From positions 5,580,001 to 5,644,000 of the forward strand of contig AP024096.1 of the NCBI GenBank assembly GCA_015099395.1: 64,000 nt of DNA, written 5' to 3'. The DNA comes from Ktedonobacteria bacterium brp13. GTDB taxonomy: Bacteria > Chloroflexota > Ktedonobacteria > Ktedonobacterales > Ktedonobacteraceae. Positions 47,636 through 59,743 of the stretch are shown one piece after another. A program made the position numbers and the translations under genes. The first letter of the stretch is position 1; each line of letters starts with the position of its first letter. The notes under the pieces were generated by a model, which saw only the letters and a list, made by a program, of their open reading frames with translations, did no database searches and had not been told where the DNA came from.

Positions 47636-49918
47636 CTAGTCATGAAGAATAGTAAAAGCACCGGTTGTAGTAGTGGTAGTGCCAACGTCAACAGCCATTA
47701 CAGCTACACCACCTGAGCTGGCAGCGCTGTTGTTGACGCTAAACAGGTATGCTGAGTTGACATATACAGTGATCGTAGTTCCTTGTGCCACAATTGTTAC
47801 ATGATTGGATACGTTATTTCCGGTTTTGATGGCTGGGCTGGAGCCGTTTTCTAGAGTGGCGCTTGAGTCCACCAGATCGTACGTGCCATCAGTACCGATG
47901 CGCAAACGATAGATTGATCGGAATATGATGCCGCCGCCATTACCCTGAGTTGTGATAGCAACATCAATTTTGACATTGCTGACTGTGACACCAGGGATAA
48001 AATTTGCAGCCGCTGTGTTTGTCTGCGTTGCCTGGATGCTTATCCGACCCGTATAGATGGGTGCTGGTGGATTAGGTTTAGGCGTTGGCGTCAATGTTGG
48101 CATCGTTGTTGGCGTCAATGTTGGCGTCAATGTTGGCGTCAATGTTGGCGTCATTGTTGACGTCATTGTTGACGTCGTTGTTGGCGTCTTTGTGGGTGAA
48201 GGTCTTGCATTCACGTGAGCGAGACCCGTCGCTTTTACAAGAGGAATAACGATAGATGTCAGCGTTGGCTTTGGAGCATGTTGCGTATTACTGTTGTTAA
48301 AGGGATGAAAGAAGACGAAAAACAAACTGGAACCAACAATAAATATTAACGCAACAAGTGCAATAAGTATATTTGACAGATATTTGCGTGTTGCATTGGC
48401 AGGTGTTGCAGAAGTAGAATGCAGAACAGCCGATGATGAAAAATTATTTATTGCAGGTTGACCATTCTGTTTCTGAACAGAATTGCTGTCTATTGACGAG
48501 ACCGGAGGTAATAACGACACTCTACTATAAAAGGGAGACGGTGAAGGGGGAGGAGGAAGCACTTCGTGCTCCTCCATTTTGCCGGTGGTAACTTCAGGTT
48601 GTTGTAACTGTGTCGCAGGGGTGGAAAGGTCGAAGGATTGTTGGAGCGGTGTCGCAGGGGTGGAAAGGTCGAAGGGTTGTTGGAACTGTGTCGCAGGGGT
48701 GGAAAGGTCGAAGGATTGTTGGAGCGGTGTCGCAGGGGTGGAAAGGTCGAATGGTTGTTGGAACTGTGTCGCAGGGGTGGAAAGGTCGAAGGATTGTTGG
48801 AGCGGTGTCGCAGGGGTGGAAAGGTCGAAGGGTTGTTGGAACTGTGTCGCAGGGGCGGAAAGGTCGAAGGGTTGTTGGAACTGTGTCGCAGGAGCGGAAA
48901 GGTCGAAGGGTTGTTGGAGCGGTGTCGCAGGAGCGGAAAGGTCGAAGGGTTGTTGGAGCGGTGTCGCAGGGGCGGAAAGGTCGAAAGGCTGTTGTAACTG
49001 TGTCGCAGGGGTGGAAAGGTCGAAGGGTTGTTGTAACTGTGTCGCAGGGGTGGAAAGGTCAAAAGGCACCGTGTGCTGAGACTGTTCAAGCGCCTGAGCG
49101 AACGTCATAATATCTGCGAAGCGATTATGATAATCCTTAGAAAGAGCTTTGAATACAACTTGCTCAACAGCAAAAGGAATAGCAAGATTCGGCGTAGATA
49201 AAGGAGGAGGCAGGATACCCGTGATATGTTGACCGAAGACCTCCAAGAAGTTTCCATGGAAAGGAAGCGTACCAGACAACCATTCATAAACCATCACAGC
49301 TAATGAATATTGATCGTTCGCAAACCGCGCTTTGCCCTCAAACTGTTCTGGTGCCATATAGGGAAGCGTCCCAGAAACGTTTTTGCTGATGAATTCCGAA
49401 CTCTGTACGTTATCGTAGTAGGCACGAGCCAGACCAAAATCACTCACAAGCAACTTATTATTTTGATCAATAAGGATATTATCAGGTTTCAGATCCCGAT
49501 GAATGCATCGTCGCTCATGAGCATGTTGAAGAGCGCCAGCAATTTGCCTGACATATTCGATGACCGTTGCCAGAGGAACCGTAGTTGCAGCAGTTTGTCC
49601 TGCCTCATTAACAAAGGTATGGCGTTGGCGAAGTGATCCATTGGGAGCATAATCCATAATCAGAAACGCCATATTAAATTCAACGCCAAATTCTAAGATA
49701 CGAATAATATGCGGATGAGAGAGTTGAGCAAGAATACGAGCCTCTTGAATGAAGTTATTGTGATTATTATCACCGACCACCGTTGAATGGAGCAACTTAA
49801 TCGCAGCATAGCTCCCGAGATAGATATGCCTTCCAATATAGACATCTGCAAATCCACCACGACCAAGAATTCCTTGTATCTGATAATTGCTTATTCTCTG
49901 CCCAATAAGTTCGACCAT
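47636..49918 (-). CDS. Receptor-type Ser/Thr protein kinase with 13-residue repeats
   Basis: 760 aa. The kinase domain (residues about 10-280) has the Gly loop LGRGGFADVY, Lys in AAIKLL, catalytic HRDLKPDN, the DFG motif and APEQF, so it looks active. Residues about 286-440 are twelve copies of a 13-residue unit, consensus QPFDLSTPATQLQ. A transmembrane helix follows at about 512-540. A Thr/Pro stalk (TPTLTP repeats) and a C-terminal outer domain of beta type come last. The outer domain may be a carbohydrate-binding or sensor domain (GRISIQATQTNTAAANFIPG). The start is ATG at 49918. Confidence 0.9.
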   Translation of the reverse strand: MVELIGQRISNYQIQGILGRGGFADVYIGRHIYLGSYAAIKLLHSTVVGDNNHNNFIQEARILAQLSHPHIIRILEFGVEFNMAFLIMDYAPNGSLRQRHTFVNEAGQTAATTVPLATVIEYVRQIAGALQHAHERRCIHRDLKPDNILIDQNNKLLVSDFGLARAYYDNVQSSEFISKNVSGTLPYMAPEQFEGKARFANDQYSLAVMVYEWLSGTLPFHGNFLEVFGQHITGILPPPLSTPNLAIPFAVEQVVFKALSKDYHNRFADIMTFAQALEQSQHTVPFDLSTPATQLQQPFDLSTPATQLQQPFDLSAPATPLQQPFDLSAPATPLQQPFDLSAPATQFQQPFDLSAPATQFQQPFDLSTPATPLQQSFDLSTPATQFQQPFDLSTPATPLQQSFDLSTPATQFQQPFDLSTPATPLQQSFDLSTPATQLQQPEVTTGKMEEHEVLPPPPSPSPFYSRVSLLPPVSSIDSNSVQKQNGQPAINNFSSSAVLHSTSATPANATRKYLSNILIALVALIFIVGSSLFFVFFHPFNNSNTQHAPKPTLTSIVIPLVKATGLAHVNARPSPTKTPTTTSTMTSTMTPTLTPTLTPTLTPTTMPTLTPTPKPNPPAPIYTGRISIQATQTNTAAANFIPGVTVSNVKIDVAITTQGNGGGIIFRSIYRLRIGTDGTYDLVDSSATLENGSSPAIKTGNNVSNHVTIVAQGTTITVYVNSAYLFSVNNSAASSGGVAVMAVDVGTTTTTTGAFTILHD
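48596..49063 (-). repeat. Twelve 39-bp tandem repeats inside the kinase gene
   Basis: Each unit encodes 13 residues of the FDLS(T/A)PAT(Q/P)(L/F)Q type. The six copies nearest the 3' end alternate in pairs (PLQ-QS then QFQ-QP), giving a 78-bp higher-order repeat, so part of the array expanded recently. All units stay in frame. Opposite-strand frames across this array are artefacts of the repeat. Confidence 0.92.
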
Positions 49919-50154
49919 GTTTTTGCGATTCCAATTTTTTTGCTAAAAGATCCAAATGCGATACATACTTTCTAAGTATATACTAGCAGCAAAGACAAAC
50001 ATAGTAACTAGCAGGATATTCCTAATTGTAAATCCCAACATTAAACGGCTCATGGCGGTTATGTCAAAACTCAGACCTTATCCTGGTATAATGGTTCTCT
50101 TTCTGATATGCTCATATAAAAAGAACAACCAGATCTCATGAGGAGTAGGAACCA

Positions 50155-50429
50155 ATGAGCTGTCCCTATTGTACAGCACCCGCTCCCAAGAAGCGAACCA
50201 AGAAAACCAAGCTCGGCTCTGCAACATTTTTCTGCTCGTGGTTTTCTGGCGACTGCGCTACAAATTGAGTCTGCGCGATCTCGCAGAAATGTTGCTCGAA
50301 CGTGGTTTCACGTTTACGCATGAGGCGGCTCGCGACTGGAAAGCACGATTTGCTCCGTTGCTCGCGGATCAGTTGCGAACAAAACGGCAGTTACCTCTGC
50401 TTTCAGTTGCTACAGCATTAATATGGTAA
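50155..50429 (+). pseudogene. IS6-type transposase remnant
   Basis: The start MSCPYC, then KKRTKKTKLG, in frame from 50155 is like the zinc-finger N-terminus of IS6-family transposases, but it stops after about 36 codons. In another frame (from about 50225) WRLRYKLSLRDLAEMLLERGF and HEAARDWKARFAPLLADQLRTKR match the following helix-turn-helix and pre-DDE region. About 30 residues are missing between the two, with a frame change, and the DDE domain is absent. It is a decayed, truncated copy. No terminal inverted repeats were identified. Confidence 0.75.
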
Positions 50430-50460
50430 ACACTGATCGGTTGTACACATTTTCAATAAG

Positions 50461-51275
50461 TTTTCCACATTGTGTGTGGAAAACTCTGCGAGTTCTGTTC
50501 ATAACTCGTAGCTAAATAAGAATTCCAAACTTATAAAGAAACTCATTCAAACATACTTACAACTCGACATGTGCCTTCCTCACCAAAAGCATGTCTCGCA
50601 TCTCCTGGGATATGACTCATCAGAGGCTCCATGGAGTTTTCCACAACCATTGTGGAAAACTTTCTCTTCTACCCACATTGCTATAGCTAGCTATATCGCC
50701 AGCTATAGCTAAATAGACGAAAAAGAGCAGAGCATTCTTTTTCCACAATTACTGTGGAAAAGTTTTCCACAATATCCACATTCAATAGATGAAGATCACC
50801 ATAGTATAGCTATGTTATATTGCTAGCAATACTATATTGCTACAAATTGTCATTAGTACTGGCAAAGTTCTAGTTTTCCACATTGTGTGTGGAGAACTTT
50901 TCCACATTACCCACAATGGCGATAACTAGCTATATTGCTGGCTATGACAATAACTCACGGTGGATATATAGTGATCGATTTAACCGACTTTTCCACAAAT
51001 ATTGTGGAGAACTTTTCCACAGTATCCACAATGACCATAGCTGGTTATATAACTGGTTATTATTTTAGTTCAATACAGGTAAATATTTCCTACATTAGGC
51101 CGACTTTTCCACAATCATTGTGGAAAAGTCGGCCTAACATGCACAAAAAATGCTAATTTACCAATCGTACAAGTACTTTTTCCACAACCATTGTGGAAAA
51201 GTTGTCCACAACTGTGAGTTTGTCATTACATGTTATCCAATATTTCGCAGAGTTTTCCACAGTGATTGTGGAAAA
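50461..51275. repeat. Eight 23-bp palindromes TTTTCCACA-N5-TGTGGAAAA
   Basis: Palindromes start at 50461, 50637, 50739, 50874, 50989, 51104, 51179 and 51253. All have exactly five central bases that differ from copy to copy. Copies at 50874 and 50989 have TGTGGAGAA as the right arm. Extra single TTTTCCACA arms are at 50763, 50898 and 51013. TTTTCCACA is a DnaA-box variant (the form described for cyanobacteria). The intervals between copies 2 and 6 hold CCACA(A/T)TG and AT-rich AGCTATAT-type palindromes, so the tract is also a loose ~115-bp repeat. Confidence 0.9.
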
Positions 51276-51499
51276 CTTTTGTTGAAAAGTCTGAAAACTG
51301 CCTCGATTTGAACAACTTGCCTGCACATATCTATTTCATGCCTATGCAAATGAATCACTACCAGGCGACGAAAATGGTCTGGTCCTGAGAGAAGAGCAAT
51401 GTATGCAGTAAAGAGGAGGGATATTCACACATGCAAAAACAGTGAAACGGGGTTGGTTATTAGATAGTGCCAGAGAATTCAAAGCTGATAGAAAGGGAG

Positions 51500-51942
51500 T
51501 TATCCACAATTATCCACCTGTTCAGACTTATCCACATTTTGTGTGGAAAACTTATCCACATGCATAAAATTACTGTGGATAGCTGTGGATAACCAGGTAT
51601 CAGATGTGGACAAGTTGTGGATAAAATGTGGATAGACGGTGGATAACTATGAGCTTTTTTTTGGGGATTCGTAACCGGTGGATAAGTTATCCCCAGGCTA
51701 TCCACATAAATACCAAAAGTTATCCACCGTTTTTACCCTCTTTTTTGCCATGTGGATAACTTATGCACATAGGTGCGCAACGGCTCTACAGGCCTGCGGA
51801 TACCATGTGCATAAGCAAGGAGAAAGTGGTCAAATTCGAAAGTTATCCACTTTTCCACAGTCCCTACTACTACTAATTCATATTTTTTTTAAAAAAAAAT
51901 AAAGATCTAATAGTAGTCAGTGGTTGTGGATAATGTGGATAA
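51500..51942. other. oriC: Replication origin core: DnaA-box cluster, DnaA-trio and AT tract
   Basis: Exact TTATNCACA boxes (either strand) lie at 51500, 51528, 51552, 51584, 51616, 51751, 51761, 51806, 51925 and 51934, with about ten more one-mismatch boxes between. At 51843-51859 a near-box and TTTTCCACA abut. They are followed by TCC and then CTA-CTA-CTA-CTA (51864-51875), the DnaA-trio pattern that loads DnaA on one strand. A T8A9 tract (51883-51899) follows. This order, box-GC-trio-AT, matches the basal unwinding element of bacterial origins. No dnaA gene is adjacent; dnaG is 335 bp downstream. Confidence 0.88.
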
Positions 51943-52276
51943 GTTCTTAAGGCGAGATAATTTAGCGAGAATGAGTATCGTGGTTGTACAATACGAGGAC
52001 ACCAAGATGTCCTATTGAGTTCGATTGACGTTCGACTCGCTCGTTGCAAGTAGTACAATAAGTATAACCCTTGTAGCTTGCGTGGAAAGAACGCCGGGTG
52101 CCTATGAAGATGAATAAAGTCATCAGGCGCGCGACTTTCACTGCTATAGCTCGTTATATTGTTGAAATAGAGACCAGAGAAGGCAAGCAGCATAAGTAAA
52201 TCTTTCGGGTAGCTATTCAGAGCAATAGGAGGATACCATTGCTCCAGGCGTAGGCGATCTGGTTTAAGGAAGCAAT
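51943..52276. other. Leader region of dnaG
   Basis: 334 bp with no gene. A small hairpin GGACA-CCAAGA-TGTCC lies at about 51999-52014. TTGACG near 52026 and TACAAT near 52055 are promoter-like but spaced about 23 bp apart. I cannot place the dnaG promoter with confidence. Confidence 0.35.
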
Positions 52277-54457
52277 ATGTCATCGATTATCGAGACCATC
52301 AAAGCTAAGGTAGATATAGCAGATGAGGTAGGCATGGTGGTAGCTTTAGCGAAATCAGGCAAGTCACTCAAGGGGCTGTGTCCTTTTCACAACGAACGTT
52401 CGCCATCGTTTTATGTCTTCAAAGACACCCAGAGCTGGCATTGTTTTGGCTGCAACGAAGGTGGAGATATCTTTACCTTCGTGCAAAAGCAACAGAATCT
52501 CGATTTTCACGAGGCGCTCACCTATCTGGCCGAGAAAGCCGACATCTCACTAGAGGAGATGGGTGGAGAACGCACCGAAGAGGAGCGTGAGATTGGAGCC
52601 ACAAAAGAGCGTCTACGCAAACTGAATGAAGACGCACTGCTCTGGTTTCACCAGATGCTGCTACGATCGCGTGAGGGGAGCGAGGCACGGGCATATGTCC
52701 AGAGTCGAGGTATCACCTCCGATTCCGTCGTTGCGTTCAGCTTAGGCTATGCTGGTGAGCAATGGGAGGGTCTCACACGCTATCTACAAGGGCAGGGTTA
52801 TAGTGAGCAAGAACTTGTTACAGCTGGCCTGGCTCGTTGGCGTGAGAGCGAAGACCTGGGGGGTGAGCGACGAGGAGCCTACGACTACTTCCGTAATCGC
52901 TTGATCTTCCCGATTCGTGATATACGAGGTCGCGTCATCGGTTTTGGAGGGAGGGCGCTGGGAGAAAATAAGCCAAAGTACCTCAACACACCACAGACTG
53001 TCCTATTTGACAAGGGTAGCATCCTCTATGGCATGGATATGGCGAAAGATGCAATAAAGCAAATTGGGCAGGTTGTTATAGTAGAAGGGTACGTAGATGC
53101 TGTTATTGCTCAGCAGTATGGGACGAAGCAGACAGTAGCCTGTTGTGGAAGTGCCATTACTGAGAAGCACATACAGCAGCTGAAGAAGCTCACGAAGCAA
53201 GTAACGCTGGCACTTGATCCTGACGCCGCTGGAACAGCAGCGACCGAGCAAGGGATCAAAGAGGCTCTTAAAGGTTTTGATAAGACCTACGTTCCCGTCC
53301 CACTCGCGGGCGGGAACAATGCAGGGTTTGCGGGTTCCCGCAAAGGTCAACAGTCTCAACAAGGCTTTCAAAAGGGACCGAACAATCAAAGTAACCAGAA
53401 AAATGTGGAGCGTTATGCAAAAACGCAGGGTATTATTCGTCTAGAAGAACAGGTAGACGCAGAGATCAACGTTTTGCAACTACCAGCTGGTGAAGATCCC
53501 GACGAAGTCATACGGAGAGACTACTCAACCTGGTTATATGCAGTCACTCATCCCATTGCATTGATAGACTATTACTTTATCGTAAAGACCACCGACCTGA
53601 ACATGCAAGAACCGAGCGGCAAGACCGAAGCGGCGCGCAGACTTCTCCCGGTGATCGGAATGATCAGTGATCGCATCAAGCGGGATGCATATATTCGCAA
53701 GCTAGCGGGCCTTGTCAAAGTAGAGGAGCGAGCACTTTACGAAGAGCTGCAACGTGTCCTACGTGGGCAAAAGAGCAACATCATCACAGCAGACTTCAGT
53801 GGTAGAAGTAGACAAGACGCGCAAGGCCACCCACAGGAACAAGTAAGCAAGCAGGGACAGAGCGAAACGAAGCATAGGAAAGGAGAGATTGATGACGAAG
53901 ATCCCTTCGTCAGTCAGCCACAAAAAGATAGAAGCGTAGCAAACAAGCTGAGCAATGAAAAAAATGTCAGTTTCGGGCTTGACAGAAGAGAGAAGAGTAC
54001 GTTAAAATGGGAAGACTACCTTATTGGGCTACTCCTACAGAATTCAAGCTTATATCAATATGTTTGTGGTATAATTACCGAAGGTGACTTCGCTGGGACA
54101 GACACGCGTGAGTTGTACCACATACTCAACTCTACATATCAACGTGACTCTTCCCCTTCTAATCAATCCATTGAGCAATCCGTGCCTTCGGCTCTGGTGC
54201 CCACCGTTACCCGGGTGCTAGAGAGCGCCAGGGCGTTGTCTCCGCAAGACGTAGATGCGCTAGCAAAAGAAGCAGTCCAGTGCGCAATCCGTCTTAAGAA
54301 AACAAGACTCTTACAATTAAATACAGAATTAAAATTTCTTTTACAAGAAGCGGCCGCAACTGGCGATAAAACTGCCGAAAGACAATTTCTACAGCAGTTC
54401 GTAGAGATCCAGAGGCAGTTGCACACGTTAACCAGCGCAACCAAACTTCAGGGTTAG
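52277..54457 (+). CDS. dnaG: DNA primase
   Basis: 726 aa primase that lays RNA primers at the replication fork. The CHC2 zinc finger has C35, H38, C56 and C59. The RNA-polymerase core has FNRLIFP-type context (YFRNRLIFPIRDIRGRVIGFGGR) and the TOPRIM motifs VEGYVDA and LDPDAAG. A Gly/Gln/Asn-rich insert of about 35 residues (around 350-385) interrupts the core. The C-terminal helical part should bind DnaB. AAGGAAG precedes the ATG. It is followed by the primary sigma factor gene, as in classic macromolecular-synthesis operons. Confidence 0.96.
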   Translation: MSSIIETIKAKVDIADEVGMVVALAKSGKSLKGLCPFHNERSPSFYVFKDTQSWHCFGCNEGGDIFTFVQKQQNLDFHEALTYLAEKADISLEEMGGERTEEEREIGATKERLRKLNEDALLWFHQMLLRSREGSEARAYVQSRGITSDSVVAFSLGYAGEQWEGLTRYLQGQGYSEQELVTAGLARWRESEDLGGERRGAYDYFRNRLIFPIRDIRGRVIGFGGRALGENKPKYLNTPQTVLFDKGSILYGMDMAKDAIKQIGQVVIVEGYVDAVIAQQYGTKQTVACCGSAITEKHIQQLKKLTKQVTLALDPDAAGTAATEQGIKEALKGFDKTYVPVPLAGGNNAGFAGSRKGQQSQQGFQKGPNNQSNQKNVERYAKTQGIIRLEEQVDAEINVLQLPAGEDPDEVIRRDYSTWLYAVTHPIALIDYYFIVKTTDLNMQEPSGKTEAARRLLPVIGMISDRIKRDAYIRKLAGLVKVEERALYEELQRVLRGQKSNIITADFSGRSRQDAQGHPQEQVSKQGQSETKHRKGEIDDEDPFVSQPQKDRSVANKLSNEKNVSFGLDRREKSTLKWEDYLIGLLLQNSSLYQYVCGIITEGDFAGTDTRELYHILNSTYQRDSSPSNQSIEQSVPSALVPTVTRVLESARALSPQDVDALAKEAVQCAIRLKKTRLLQLNTELKFLLQEAAATGDKTAERQFLQQFVEIQRQLHTLTSATKLQG

Positions 54458-54562
54458 AGGCATGGGAGGTTTGCGGAGAGGTGGCTGGAACTGGATGAGG
54501 AAGGGCGCAAGGTTCTCCTCTCGGACGAGCGCCGTGTTTACGTAGATCTGAGGCGGCAATAA
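54458..54562 (+). other. In-frame open continuation after the dnaG stop
   Basis: After TAG (54455-54457) the same frame stays open for 34 codons to TAA at 54560-54562. It encodes a charged, coding-like peptide (RHGRFAERWLELDEEGRK ... RRVYVDLRRQ). It has no start codon of its own with a ribosome site. It may be a former C-terminus of DnaG, a remnant of another gene, or chance. Confidence 0.35.
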
Positions 54563-54653
54563 ATAAACATTTTACCAAAGCGGACCAGAGAGCAGGATTT
54601 GTATTATTCTTTGTTTATCTTGTTAGGCCTGTTTTCTGAAGGGGGATGTCAGA

Positions 54654-55988
54654 ATGGTGAATCGGGACCAAGAAGTAATGGATCGAATACAAAATAAACG
54701 TGGTGATGTGAATACAGTGAGTAAAGCGAGTGCAGTTGGCGCAGCAAGTGCTGTCAGTACAGGGACACTCCATGATGTGTTTGAGCACTTTACTGTAGAT
54801 AAAAACGATCCCATTATACATACTACTGATGATGTCTTTGCTATTGATATCGTCGGTCATCATGCTCACGTCCCAACTGAGATCCCGAAGGAGTCGGTTG
54901 GTGAAAGTGAGGAATTTGACCTGTTTAAGCTACAGGACGAAGAGCCTATGGAAGCCCTGGACTCAACCAAAGAGCCGCCAGCGGATTGGGAGCCCGGTCC
55001 CGAAGAAGTTGCTGAAGTGGATGTAGAAATTCTGGCAGATCCGAAATGGGATGATATCAACGATGGACTTGGCATAGTTGTTGCTGACCTCGAAGGTAGC
55101 CTGGATGATCCCGTCCGCATGTATCTGCGTGAAATCGGTCGTGTCCCGTTGTTGAACGCTGAAGAAGAGGTTCGCCTGGCACAATTGATGGAGCGCGGCA
55201 AACAGGAACGGTTACGGGCTGAGCATCTGCGAGTATCCGCGAATCGTAGAATTGTTGTCGATGGTGAGGAGGCGCAACGCCGTCTGACCGAAGCCAATCT
55301 GCGTCTCGTTGTAAGTGTAGCGAAGAAGTATATTGGTCGTGGCATGAACCTGCTGGACTTGATCCAGGAGGGCAATATTGGCTTGATTCGTGCGGTTGAG
55401 AAGTTTGATTATACCAAGGGCTATAAGTTTAGCACGTATGCCACCTGGTGGATTCGCCAGGCGATTACTCGTGCTATTGCTGACCAGGCTCGTACCATTC
55501 GTATCCCGGTCCACATGGTTGAGACAATCAATCGTTTGATTCGCATCAGTCGCCGGCTTCTGCAAGATCTGGGGCGAGAACCAACCTCTGAAGAGATAGC
55601 CGAGCAGATGGAGATCAGCGCCGAGAAAGTACGTGAGATCATCAAGGTGAGCCAGGAGCCCGTGAGCCTGGAGACACCGATCGGTGAAGAGGATGACAGC
55701 CACCTGGGCGACTTCCTGGAAGACCAGACAGCTCTGGCACCAGCCGAAGCCGCGAGTCATCAATTACTCAAAGAGCAGGTCGAAGATGTACTGGATAGCC
55801 TGACTGAGCGCGAACGTAAAGTATTGCAATTACGCTTTGGTCTTGACGACGGTCGTAGCCGCACGTTGGAAGAGGTCGGTAAAGAGTTTCATGTGACGCG
55901 TGAGCGTATCCGCCAGATTGAAGCAAAGGCTCTGCGTAAATTACGCCATCCGAGCCGCAGCCGTAAGCTGAAAGATTACCTGGATTAA
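54654..55988 (+). CDS. rpoD: Primary RNA polymerase sigma factor (RpoD/SigA)
   Basis: 444 aa. Region 1.2 has [21 protein letters not shown], and region 2 has [29 protein letters not shown]. The -10 reading region 2.4 is [22 protein letters not shown]. Region 3 follows. Region 4.2 is [30 protein letters not shown]. The N-terminal 140 residues are acidic and variable (region 1.1-like). AAGGGGG lies upstream of the ATG. It stands between two DnaA-box clusters and 196 bp after dnaG. A strong terminator follows at 56086-56126. Confidence 0.95.
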
Positions 55989-56037
55989 GCTATTCAAAAG
56001 TGTATGATCGCTGCTAGCGTTTAACCTATCCGGCAGT

Positions 56038-56386
56038 TGTGCATAACCGTGTGCAAATGTGGATAACTATTGTGTATAACTTTTGAGCGAAGAGTTTTCT
56101 TACTGAAAACCTTCGCTTTTCTTTTTGCCTTGCAGTCTCTTCACAGGCTGCTGCACGCGGTTTTATGATGAAAATAAAAAGTTGCGATAAGAGTTCTTCG
56201 CTCTGTTGTGTAAATGTGGATAACTTATCCACATGTCTCGTTCTACTACTCATACGGATATGGAAATGTCACTCTCTGGCTAGAACTGTATCGCACTACG
56301 CTTCTCAGCAAGAGTAACTAGAATTGTGGATAACAATGTGGATAAGTGGATGTTTATGTGGATAAGTTGTGGAAATCTGTGGATAA
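56038..56386. other. oriC: Second DnaA-box cluster downstream of rpoD
   Basis: Exact TGTGNATAA boxes are at 56038, 56058, 56071, 56215, 56325, 56337, 56357 and 56378 on one strand, and TTATCCACA at 56225 on the other. The cluster is AT-rich downstream (56400-56930) and includes the inverted repeat ATAGCTATTC-TGC-GAATAGCTAT (56658-56680). With the cluster at 51500-51942 it flanks dnaG-rpoD, suggesting a bipartite origin or a DnaA-titration site. Confidence 0.75.
56086..56126 (+). terminator. rpoD terminator
   Basis: AGCGAAG-A-GTTTTC (56086-56099), loop TTACT, GAAAAC-CTTCGCT (56105-56117), then TTTCTTTTT. Strong intrinsic terminator about 100 bp after the rpoD stop, sitting within the second DnaA-box cluster. 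Confidence 0.88.
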
Positions 56387-56399
56387 ATAGCGTCGGAAT

Positions 56400-56939
56400 G
56401 GGTGTGCAGGACTGAATGTAACAATGTTGTATTCACTATTCCTCAGAGTAAGGTTTTGGCTTACTGTTTTATAGCTGGAGGCCAACTTCAGAAAAACCTT
56501 CTTATTACTGAGAATCGAAGTTGAATTGAACTATATTCGCTGACTTTTTTCCTATAAACTTTCCAATAACAAATGCTGTAGACGATAATAAAATAGTACG
56601 AGAATTGATAACGTGTGATATTTAATGGTAATTCATTATCCTATTTAATTAGGAATAATAGCTATTCTGCGAATAGCTATAGATATAGCGAATGATATAC
56701 GTTACTTCATGTTTAACTTTAGCAGCTATATGGAGCGGCTATTACAATTTTTTATTGTTAAAACTTATCTGGTTGAATTACTTTTTGAGGTATGGTTCAA
56801 AATGAGTGCGAAGCATGCCTGAGCATCTTAACAATAAAAAATTGATCATACGTAGAAATAACAAGCAAACTCGTAAACTGTTGAACATGCATAATTATTT
56901 TAATTTCACTGAAGCCGTATTGCACGAAAGGGTAGCTTC
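56400..56939. other. AT-rich region with no gene
   Basis: 540 bp of very AT-rich DNA between the DnaA boxes and the next gene. It holds the inverted repeat at 56658-56680 and no supported coding frame. The frame at 56806-57042 overlaps the next gene and has no ribosome site. It could be a second unwinding region or the promoter zone of the membrane protein gene. Confidence 0.4.
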
Positions 56940-58823
56940 ATGTATTCTACAGATCTATCTACATACAATGAAAACACACAGAAGCATAGTATATCGCGAT
57001 GGATACAAGTACTCCGTTCGCCTCTATGGCTTTGCCTCTTAGTTGGTATCATTGTTCGTCTCTTCCTTATTTATCATGGTGATGCTTCTCTGCCTGGAGA
57101 TGAGGCCTTAACTGGCATTCAAGCCGAAAATATCTTACGAGGCCTTCATCCGATCTACTACTATAAGCAACCTTATTTAGGTAGCCTGGAAGCCTATATT
57201 CTCGCTGCATTCTTTGCTGTTGCTGGTCCTTCGGTATTTGTGCTACGCATTGGTATGACCTGCATCTCCCTTACTCTTGTGGTTCTTACCTGGTTTTTCT
57301 CAGCAGCGCTAGCTGATCAGGCAAAGCTAAAAGGCCCTGCAAAAAATATATTCATGATCGTCGCTACGCTTATTGCTGCACTGCCACCACTCTATGACGT
57401 TATTATTGAAATACGTTCCTGGGGTGGATATATCGAGGCAATGATTTGCATGGTCTGGATAATGTTGGTGGCACTTCGACTCACCCAACGTTGGCAAGCG
57501 CGTGCTTCCGTACGTGAACTTTCACTGCGCTGGCTCTGGCTCGGATTTGCGTTAGGATTTAGCCTCTGGATAGATCCCCTTGTTGTCTATGCAATCGGTG
57601 CGTCTGCACTCTGGATTGGTGGCATTATTCTTGTTGAGTTGATTCATCCTGCACCACGTCCACATGCCCGTCGTACAATTCTTCTCGAAACGCTGCTGGC
57701 CTTCGCCATTATTCCAAGTGCCATGATTGGTTTTCTTCCAGGTATTATTTATGGCATAAAAAATAACTGGTCCAATATCATATACATGGTAAACAATGGA
57801 GCCGGTAAATCATCAAGTCTACAATTAAAGCTGCAATTATTTAGCATATATAGCCATTGTACCGCTGCCCGTGTTATTGGTGGAGCGATTCCAACCGCAC
57901 CTGGTGTAAGACTTGGTCACTCAGGGGTTTTAACAACTGGCCTGTATATCAACGGTATCTGTATCGCAATCGCGATCATTGCTATCGCATGTTCGTTTTT
58001 CTGGCAGCATCCTTTAGTAGTCCGAACACGGCAATTAACGATTCTCCCTTTGATTTTTATGATCATCGTCTCAATAGTCTTCTGCTGTTCTTCTATAGTC
58101 GCACGGGAAACGTATATTACTGGTTGCATGCAGTTTGATCAGACTGGGCGTTATGTCGTACCGCTTACTGTCATACTTCCATTTTTTCTTGCCGCTATAG
58201 TGGCGCTTCTATGGCAAATACCTTTCCCTTCCTTCAGGCATAAAGAAAAACAACCAGATCAAGCAGCCCCCATATCGACGAAACTATCACGACCCAACAT
58301 TGCTACAAATAATTTGCGTTGGCTAGTCAGAATTTTACTTTTGATCATCCTGGTTGTTTATTTCTCAACGCAATTTCTGGCTTATGTAAAGTCAGATCCA
58401 CCTACAGTGTTTAAAAGTGCCTCTTGCTTAAAATTACTTCCTGACGAAACTGCTATCGATCAATATATGCTCCAAAATGGGATCCATTATGCCTTTGGTT
58501 CGGGTTGGATTGCAGATCCTATCACCTTTACTACTAATGGTGCGGTTACCGCTTCTGAGCCTCCTCCAGAAGGGCGTATTCTTACTGAAGGATTAAAAAT
58601 ATTGCACGCTAACAATTATGCGTACTTATTTTTTGTACGATCATCGGATAGCACGCCAGGCTTTCAGAAAATTTTGGATGAACATCATTTGCAATACACA
58701 GCAAAACGCTTTCCATCCCAACCAGGCTGGGATGTATTGATCATCAATCCAAAGCAGAAAATTCCGCTTCATGATCCAATTGTTGATCATTACTTAAGTA
58801 CCACGATTTATGGAGGTTGTTAA
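56940..58823 (+). CDS. GT-C type membrane glycosyltransferase-like protein
   Basis: 627 aa with about ten to twelve transmembrane helices. The first outer loop has DASLPGDEALTGIQAENILRG, with an Asp/Glu pattern as in the catalytic loop of family-39/ArnT-like transferases. A soluble C-terminal part of about 140 residues follows the last helix near 480. Such enzymes use polyprenyl-phosphate sugars to modify lipids or proteins at the outer face. The exact substrate is not visible. AAAGGG lies eight bases before the ATG. Codon use is more AT-rich than its neighbours, which could mean transfer. Confidence 0.75.
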   Translation: MYSTDLSTYNENTQKHSISRWIQVLRSPLWLCLLVGIIVRLFLIYHGDASLPGDEALTGIQAENILRGLHPIYYYKQPYLGSLEAYILAAFFAVAGPSVFVLRIGMTCISLTLVVLTWFFSAALADQAKLKGPAKNIFMIVATLIAALPPLYDVIIEIRSWGGYIEAMICMVWIMLVALRLTQRWQARASVRELSLRWLWLGFALGFSLWIDPLVVYAIGASALWIGGIILVELIHPAPRPHARRTILLETLLAFAIIPSAMIGFLPGIIYGIKNNWSNIIYMVNNGAGKSSSLQLKLQLFSIYSHCTAARVIGGAIPTAPGVRLGHSGVLTTGLYINGICIAIAIIAIACSFFWQHPLVVRTRQLTILPLIFMIIVSIVFCCSSIVARETYITGCMQFDQTGRYVVPLTVILPFFLAAIVALLWQIPFPSFRHKEKQPDQAAPISTKLSRPNIATNNLRWLVRILLLIILVVYFSTQFLAYVKSDPPTVFKSASCLKLLPDETAIDQYMLQNGIHYAFGSGWIADPITFTTNGAVTASEPPPEGRILTEGLKILHANNYAYLFFVRSSDSTPGFQKILDEHHLQYTAKRFPSQPGWDVLIINPKQKIPLHDPIVDHYLSTTIYGGC

Positions 58824-59727: not shown

Positions 59728-59743
59728 TGTTTCACGTGAAACA
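59728..59743. promoter_or_regulatory. parS: parS centromere site (ParB binding)
   Basis: TGTTTCACGTGAAACA, identical to the 16-bp consensus palindrome bound by ParB/Spo0J in many bacteria. A near half-site ATGTGAAACAG follows at once (59746-59756). parS sites cluster near the origin, which fits the DnaA-box clusters 3.3-8.2 kb away. parA and parB genes are not in the window. Confidence 0.93.

Follow-up and report, generated by a model that had tools for sequence, protein, structure and literature searches.

A predicted chromosome origin beside dnaG-sigA in Ktedonobacteraceae carries two DnaA-box and DnaA-trio modules face to face

Introduction

A dense cluster of DnaA boxes in the chromosome of Ktedonobacteria bacterium brp13, at positions 51500-51942 of the 64,000-nucleotide stretch analyzed here (the window, positions 5580001-5644000 of a chromosome assembled as a single contig of 8,879,929 bases), is, taken by itself, almost certainly the chromosomal origin of replication (oriC). 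Very probably, the origin occupies the gap that separates dnaG-sigA from a divergent kinase gene, which places it just upstream of a primase-sigma gene pair. Its core comprises two modules of DnaA boxes and DnaA-trios that face each other across one AT-rich tract. As an explanation of the whole, we lean slightly towards an oriC in which the two opposed modules would work as a twin mechanism, and these mirrored halves may show how copying starts in both directions at once.

The loading of two helicases on opposite strands is described as not understood or unclear in the available portions of two publications (PMC10721633, PMC10201434). In the model outlined in the accessible text of PMC8287927 and PMC10201434, DnaA boxes direct DnaA to trios on a single strand, where the filament can then seat a helicase. 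The known unwinding module is one-sided, and the second strand needs a separate answer; a family with two opposed copies of the module in its origin would be a natural test of two-fork initiation. Origins apart from dnaA, the basal unwinding system (BUS) and a bipartite arrangement around dnaA are already known, and neither an opposed double BUS nor a dnaG-linked origin was found among the matches listed from the open-licence literature. The location also matters for origin-finding software, dnaA being the default indicator gene in Ori-Finder 2022 according to the part of its description available.

Completeness of the assembly is estimated at 92.3% and contamination at 7.65%. From coordinates shared with the Dictyobacter set, we infer that the genome belongs to the genus Dictyobacter.

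Results

The gap is bounded on the left by a Ser/Thr protein kinase gene on the minus strand (47636-49918) and on the right by dnaG on the plus strand (52277-54457), which encodes a DNA primase of 726 amino acids scoring over the TIGR01391 cut-off. The gene for the primary sigma factor, sigA/rpoD (444 amino acids, over the TIGR02393 cut-off), follows on the same strand at 54654-55988. Within 51500-51942 we counted 22 boxes with at most one mismatch to TTATCCACA, including 10 exact copies of TTATNCACA, in agreement with a sequence-only reading of this DNA that had claimed ten exact boxes and many near matches. The whole window contains 20 exact copies; 100 dinucleotide shuffles averaged 2.1 and reached at most 6. 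The genome contains 304, about one per 29 kb (194 for the reversed-pattern control). Boxes with up to one mismatch to TTATCCACA number 66 in the 64 kb, 45 of them within 50461-51942 and 9 within 56038-56386.

Upstream of the dense cluster, an array at 50461-51275 comprises 23 boxes with one mismatch, among them many TTTTCCACA-N5-TGTGGAAAA palindromes that are followed at 10 and 9 bp by further boxes. The repeat units, palindromic boxes at 14, 10 and 9-11 bp from start to start, follow a rhythm common to relatives. Each of 19 genomes of the same family (f1, Ktedonobacteraceae) has 27-68 boxes with up to one mismatch within 2.6 kb upstream of dnaG, and among the 633 pairs of neighboring boxes no more than 40 bp apart, plus-to-minus at 14 bp and minus-to-plus at 10 bp occur 154 times each, and plus-to-plus occurs 63 times at 11 bp and 48 times at 9 bp. 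A second cluster, with 9 exact boxes, is located downstream of sigA at 56038-56386. It recurs in four relatives of the same genus and in Tengunoibacter, with 5-8 boxes, such that 6 of the 18 f1 genomes covered (five of genus g1 and Tengunoibacter) have 5-9 exact boxes there; in the remaining genomes, the region holds a single box (one genome) or none (11). Trios near 56225 in this second cluster were, by eye, not conserved in five relatives.

To place these counts against the rest of the chromosome, 120 stretches of 20 kb were scanned, some overlapping and one taken from the window outside the clusters. No more than 3 exact boxes occurred in any 500 bp; in 50 stretches there was at most one per 500 bp and in 69 there was none. 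Closely spaced direct box pairs were searched for genome-wide, and 9 of the 14 found are in the oriC and post-sigA clusters (control 0). Across these 120 stretches and the genome-wide pairs, a unique dense cluster of DnaA boxes, a hallmark by which oriC is recognized, was found at the dnaG-sigA locus. The densest site among the scanned stretches, with 3 exact boxes at genome positions 5867931-5867959, is about 236 kb from oriC and is possibly a DnaA-regulatory site.

The left arm of the core starts with tandem boxes on the plus strand at 51843-51859, namely, TTATCCACT (51843-51851) and TTTTCCACA (51851-51859), which have one mismatch apiece and one base in common. The sequence-only reading had pointed out this pair and called it abutting; the pair is there, with the two boxes overlapping by one base. 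It had also given the spacer as TCC, which was incorrect: the 4-nt spacer is GTCC. The four CTA triplets that it placed next are present at 51864-51875 (3'-GAT-5' on the minus strand), as is the T8A9 tract, at 51883-51899, and the proposed basal unwinding order of box, spacer and trio agrees with the published BUS rule. The tract is part of a putative unwinding core at 51876-51907 that is shared by, and lies between, both arms. AT content reaches 91% in the segment 51876-51910, and no 40-mers in the entire window are lower in GC than those beginning at 51871-51876, on this core; the boxes are thus adjoined by an AT-rich element, another mark of oriC.

The earlier description of the core lacked a second, inverted arm. 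Read on the minus strand, 51942-51908 consists of TTATCCACA TTATCCACA, 8 nt, and then CTACTATTA, that is, tandem exact boxes at 51934-51942 and 51925-51933 (together 51925-51942), an 8-nt spacer, and inverted trios at 51916-51908. This right module and the left module (51843-51875, plus strand) face each other, and the 40 bp with the highest AT content in the window lie between them. Both arms conform to the BUS rule of a box with at most 2 mismatches, a spacer of 0-16 and at least 3 NAN trios. Under a similar rule, 2 Mb of the same genome yielded 16 single modules and no opposed pair.

Cumulative GC skew was computed over 100 stretches of 20 kb, spaced evenly; it is lowest in those that begin at 5.594 and 5.683 Mb, so that the sampled minimum of the 8.88-Mb contig brackets the box cluster. 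In a contiguous 464-kb segment, the minimum is at 5625253 for GC skew (window 45253) and at 5626869 for keto skew (window 46869), 6.2 and 4.6 kb, respectively, to the left of the cluster. A skew minimum, as expected of a bacterial oriC, therefore lies 4.6-6.2 kb from the boxes, at the dnaG-sigA site and away from either dnaA locus, which is the outcome anticipated by the skew check that the earlier reading had proposed. Elsewhere the curve is uneven, negative in the sampled stretches at 0.27-0.82 Mb and strongly positive at 0.89-1.44 Mb; this switch at 0.27-1.44 Mb perhaps reflects a large rearrangement towards the terminus.

For the genome search we used TGTTTCACGTGAAACA, which we take to be the parS motif. 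One copy is within the window, at 59728-59743, and the other six are just outside, at genome positions 5644261-5646506. All seven motifs of the genome are thus located 7.8-14.6 kb to the right of the box cluster (reversed-pattern control 0), and this clustering is independent support for an origin here, closeness to parS being a further property of oriC.

The distance from the cluster is 684 kb to one full-length dnaA gene, 880 kb to the other and 513 kb to the nearest of four dnaN-like genes, consistent with the earlier observation that the window contains neither gene. Adjacency to dnaA or dnaN, common among origins without being obligatory, is therefore not a property of this one. We rejected an origin at the dnaA/dnaN locus because only 0 and 1 exact boxes occur at the two dnaA loci, within about 1.5 kb on each side, and no close box pair was found near either dnaA gene in the genome-wide pair scan. 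The box pair nearest to any dnaN-like gene, a single pair at 6152492, is about 7 kb from the one at 6144627. All four genes for a dnaN-like sliding clamp score above the family cut-off; they are at 6144627, 6896274, 2403304 and 7527331.

The locus was compared within the class. Seven named relatives (loci L112-L118), four species of Dictyobacter and one each labeled Tengunoibacter, Ktedonosporobacter and Ktedonospora, have 22-40 exact boxes per 22-kb locus, with the highest density upstream of dnaG, and the alignment of their cores with that of the window has a mean column identity of 74%. They coincide with genomes G023, G026, G025, G024, G036, G035 and G031 of a class set of 47 genomes, 29 of which belong to f1. 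In this set, the single-module pattern TCCACA-N3-5-CTACTACT gave 25 matches in 22 genomes, 21 of them f1, and its reversed control gave 19 matches in 15 genomes, so the count is barely above the control. The weight of the pattern comes instead from position: 20 of the 25 matches share a contig with dnaG and lie about 0.3-0.8 kb upstream of it. The other five are in G001 (family f2), in G041 (on a contig without a dnaG match) and, as one extra each, in G033, G038 and G039.

A box-trio module is found about 0.3-0.8 kb upstream of dnaG in all 21 f1 genomes from which a core was extracted, 19 of these cores having been picked by their place relative to dnaG alone and two (G022, G029) by the pattern. 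Seven of the 29 f1 genomes (G019, G021, G030, G040, G044, G045 and G046) were left unscored, having no single-module match and a dnaG match that is partial, weak, absent or at a contig edge; G041 is represented through patterns alone. The recurrence of boxes and trio upstream of dnaG in f1 genomes, the outcome that the earlier reading had named as a check, adds to the skew minimum and the parS cluster in support of its proposal of a chromosome origin beside dnaG-sigA. In six f1 genomes (G000, G020, G023, G024, G025 and G026), one contig carries both parS and dnaG, about 8-19 kb apart, and Ktedonosporobacter has one parS 11 kb from dnaG. Other f1 genomes have up to 27 parS motifs each, and in drafts such as G021 and G027, parS and dnaG are on separate contigs.

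Beyond this family, no exact box was found in the 456-4000 bases covered upstream of dnaG at eight loci of families f2-f4, one of which has a single exact box downstream of the gene. We accordingly rejected the dnaG position as general for the order; the comparisons show the dnaG address of the predicted origin to be a trait of family f1. With respect to the dnaG position, the earlier suggestion of an unusual setting for Chloroflexota has been shown for the GTDB family Ktedonobacteraceae and not for the phylum generally, and origins remote from dnaA were already known.

The candidate origins of the sister-family genomes examined lie away from dnaG and dnaA alike. The f2 genome G001 has a box cluster and a single boxed module on contig C34, which carries 7 of its 18 parS motifs, the nearest at 38 kb; its dnaG is on C52, which also carries one parS and, some 67 kb from dnaG, three box pairs, and its dnaA genes are on C45 and C55. 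The candidate origin of G001 (C34, position 81020; locus L291) has one boxed module and an inverted trio-like CTTCTTCTATTA with no facing box, and is flanked by what, judged by eye, are a signal-peptidase-like gene and a kinase gene. In the f4 genome G018, parS is at 2.54 Mb and box pairs are at 2.58 and 2.65 Mb; dnaG is 0.8-0.9 Mb distant from these sites, and dnaA about 0.25 Mb or more. The two f4 candidate origins, L301 and L302, have boxes and no CTA-type module.

The arms were scored in the 21 f1 cores by a rule drawn up after inspection of the cores: a box with at most 2 mismatches, a spacer of 0-16, and CTA followed by CTA or TTA, with a third NTN added in the strict version. The left arm is present in 21 of 21 genomes, and the right arm in 14 by the strict and 17 by the relaxed rule. 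Shuffled right flanks passed the right-arm rule in 20 of 6600 cases (0.3%, strict) or 66 of 6600 (1%, relaxed), and genomic 113-mers in 3 or 10 of 17600. Three of the misses (G020, G028 and G029) have TTA-CTA with inverted box pairs, by eye, and score as misses since the rule demands CTA first; the right flank of G043 has no inverted box. Of the 17 genomes in which both arms were scored, 15 have fewer trios in the right arm than in the left. A distance of 50-58 bases separates the first trio of one arm from that of the other.

When 400 genomes of the phylum, sampled evenly from a larger group, were searched with a strict double-element pattern, drawn from the f1 cores and hence liable to miss variants, 18 of them matched, at one place each and all in f1; the split is 18/29 in f1, 0/18 in other class genomes and 0/353 in the others, and the control gave 0. 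In G035, the pattern matches both strands at one place. Relative to dnaG, genus g11 (G037, G038, G039 and G042) has the single-module pattern on the other strand, which is what equivalent arms would lead one to expect; both of its arms are long, with 5 and 4 trios, and together they form a long near-perfect inverted repeat. The strand swap and the long arms look as if the arms were interchangeable.

The two full-length DnaA paralogs are encoded at genome positions 6315929-6317419 (L001) and 4749560-4751368 (L002). Both are over the TIGR00362 cut-off and have the DnaA ATPase and helix-turn-helix domains; the DnaA_N domain was recognized only in the protein encoded at 4.75 Mb, not in that at 6.32 Mb. 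The paralogs are 40% identical and fall into two separated clades of a tree of 31 rows, which includes one locus per genome except for the window's own and carries a long-branch warning. Among the 47 class genomes, 36 have two DnaA matches over the cut-off, 9 have one and 2 have none, many of those with fewer matches being drafts. The paralogs appear to have diverged anciently. An open frame at 5052844-5054811 (L003) encodes an AAA+ protein of the DnaC/DnaI/IstB type (PF01695 match, below the cut-offs of specific NCBIfam models), and a DnaD-domain match at 5052662-5052841 adjoins it. DnaD is over the cut-off in 45 of the 47 class genomes, and these genomes seem to possess a Bacillus-like pair of DnaD and a DnaC/DnaI-like protein. 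A domesticated dna[CI] gene is mentioned for Chloroflexi in the available part of PMC5109545.

Discussion

The geometry of the core suggests a course for initiation. DnaA would fill the box array, and each box pair would guide it onto its own trios, with a filament on the minus strand at the left arm and on the plus strand at the right arm. The shared AT tract would open between the two filaments as one bubble, and a loader of the DnaD and DnaC/DnaI type would place one helicase on each strand. Each helicase would run 5' to 3' towards the box pair of its own arm, the left arm giving rise to the leftward fork and the right arm to the rightward fork, so that the forks would diverge and DnaA would be cleared from both sides. 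The parS motifs 8-15 kb away would then segregate the copied origins. If this symmetric reading is true, bidirectional initiation is written into the DNA. A symmetric bacterial origin in this sense, with opposed unwinding modules around one AT tract and with DnaA filaments and a helicase of its own for each strand, seems to us an even proposition, and that both arms work is predicted with a probability from even to marginally above. In a bolder variant, the DnaA paralogs may be specialized for different arms or steps; use of each paralog on a particular arm we regard as unlikely.

What speaks against a twin mechanism is the right arm itself, with its fewer trios in 15/17 genomes, its failure under the strict rule in 7/21, and the lack of a right-arm box in G043 and in the sister-family genome G001. 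The drafting of the arm rule after inspection of the cores, the distance of 4.6-6.2 kb between the local skew minimum and the boxes, and the completeness and contamination figures of the assembly also weigh against the reading as a whole. The facts about the right arm, together with the left arm in 21/21 genomes and the single boxed arm of G001, favor a Bacillus-like origin in which the left arm would be the sole functional unwinding module, the right arm would aid binding, looping or stabilization, and DnaD would supply the second helicase. With DnaD in 45/47 class genomes, a second filament may not be needed; its absence would have favored the twin model and is refuted by this count. Sequential loading by DnaD, DnaB and DnaI has been proposed for Bacillus in the portion of PMC13326638 available, and, by analogy, loading of the DnaD type could be sequential here, with the right arm as an accessory. 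This reading nevertheless has to accommodate a right arm that retains the order, the spacing and trios far above shuffles, with a sequence unlike that of the left arm in most genomes, as well as the g11 origins, where both arms are long and the single-module pattern is on the other strand. We hold it to be a possibility of some substance, clearly short of even. The mirrored core might, by contrast, be a structural palindrome, such as a cruciform, a terminator or a protein-binding dyad, in which the right trio matches are incidental: the array is rich in palindromic box pairs (plus-to-minus at 14 bp), and the g11 arms form their near-perfect inverted repeat. Yet in most genomes the arms differ in spacer length and trio number while both keep the order of box, spacer and trio, and Rfam, at the gathering threshold, gave no match in window 49900-57000, a result by which we also rejected an RNA element at the locus. 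A purely structural role appears quite improbable.

A DnaA reservoir of the datA/DARS type is a cluster of boxes away from the origin. The boxes at dnaG-sigA could be such a titration or regulatory site, controlling dnaG-sigA, with the origin elsewhere; they flank this gene pair on both sides, and DnaA doubles as a transcription regulator (PMC11317965, in the part available). The skew minimum, the parS cluster and the trio-AT core are nevertheless all at dnaG-sigA, hence not away from the origin, and neither dnaA has a close box pair nearby, which makes this alternative extremely improbable. A regulatory role of the boxes besides their predicted role in the origin is possible.

The twin reading builds on the BUS of Bacillus subtilis, which, in the available text of PMC6669920 and PMC10721633, likewise comprises tandem DnaA boxes, a short spacer, GAT-type DnaA-trios and an adjoining AT-rich tract; there, the trios are on one strand and the locus is that of dnaA, whereas here two modules face each other at dnaG-sigA. 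Both arms of the window fit the search rule of a survey of 2070 bacterial origins, a screen that retains one candidate per origin and whose available text does not mention opposed modules (PMC8287927). The model of the DnaD recognition element (DRE) addresses the same step, helicase loading on both strands (PMC10201434, PMC13326638, both available in part), and DnaD and DnaC/DnaI-like genes are present here. It has trios on one strand and the DRE on the other (PMC10201434), unlike the trios on each strand in our case. The bipartite oriC of B. subtilis, in which oriC1 and oriC flank dnaA, also has two gene-separated box clusters with the unwinding region at one of them (PMC13220808, as far as its text was available). 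The genes between the clusters are dnaG and sigA here and dnaA there, and the second cluster here is confined to 6/18 of the f1 genomes covered.

Within Chloroflexota, a parallel in location is the chromosome of Thermomicrobium roseum, where the usual origin genes are dispersed too and the origin was for this reason placed by skew, near the gene for DNA polymerase III tau/gamma rather than at dnaG-sigA (PMC2615216, available in part). On the far side of the gap from dnaG in our genome, the kinase gene beside oriC contains a tandem repeat, at window 48490-49089, that encodes QPFDLSTPATxLQ-like units.
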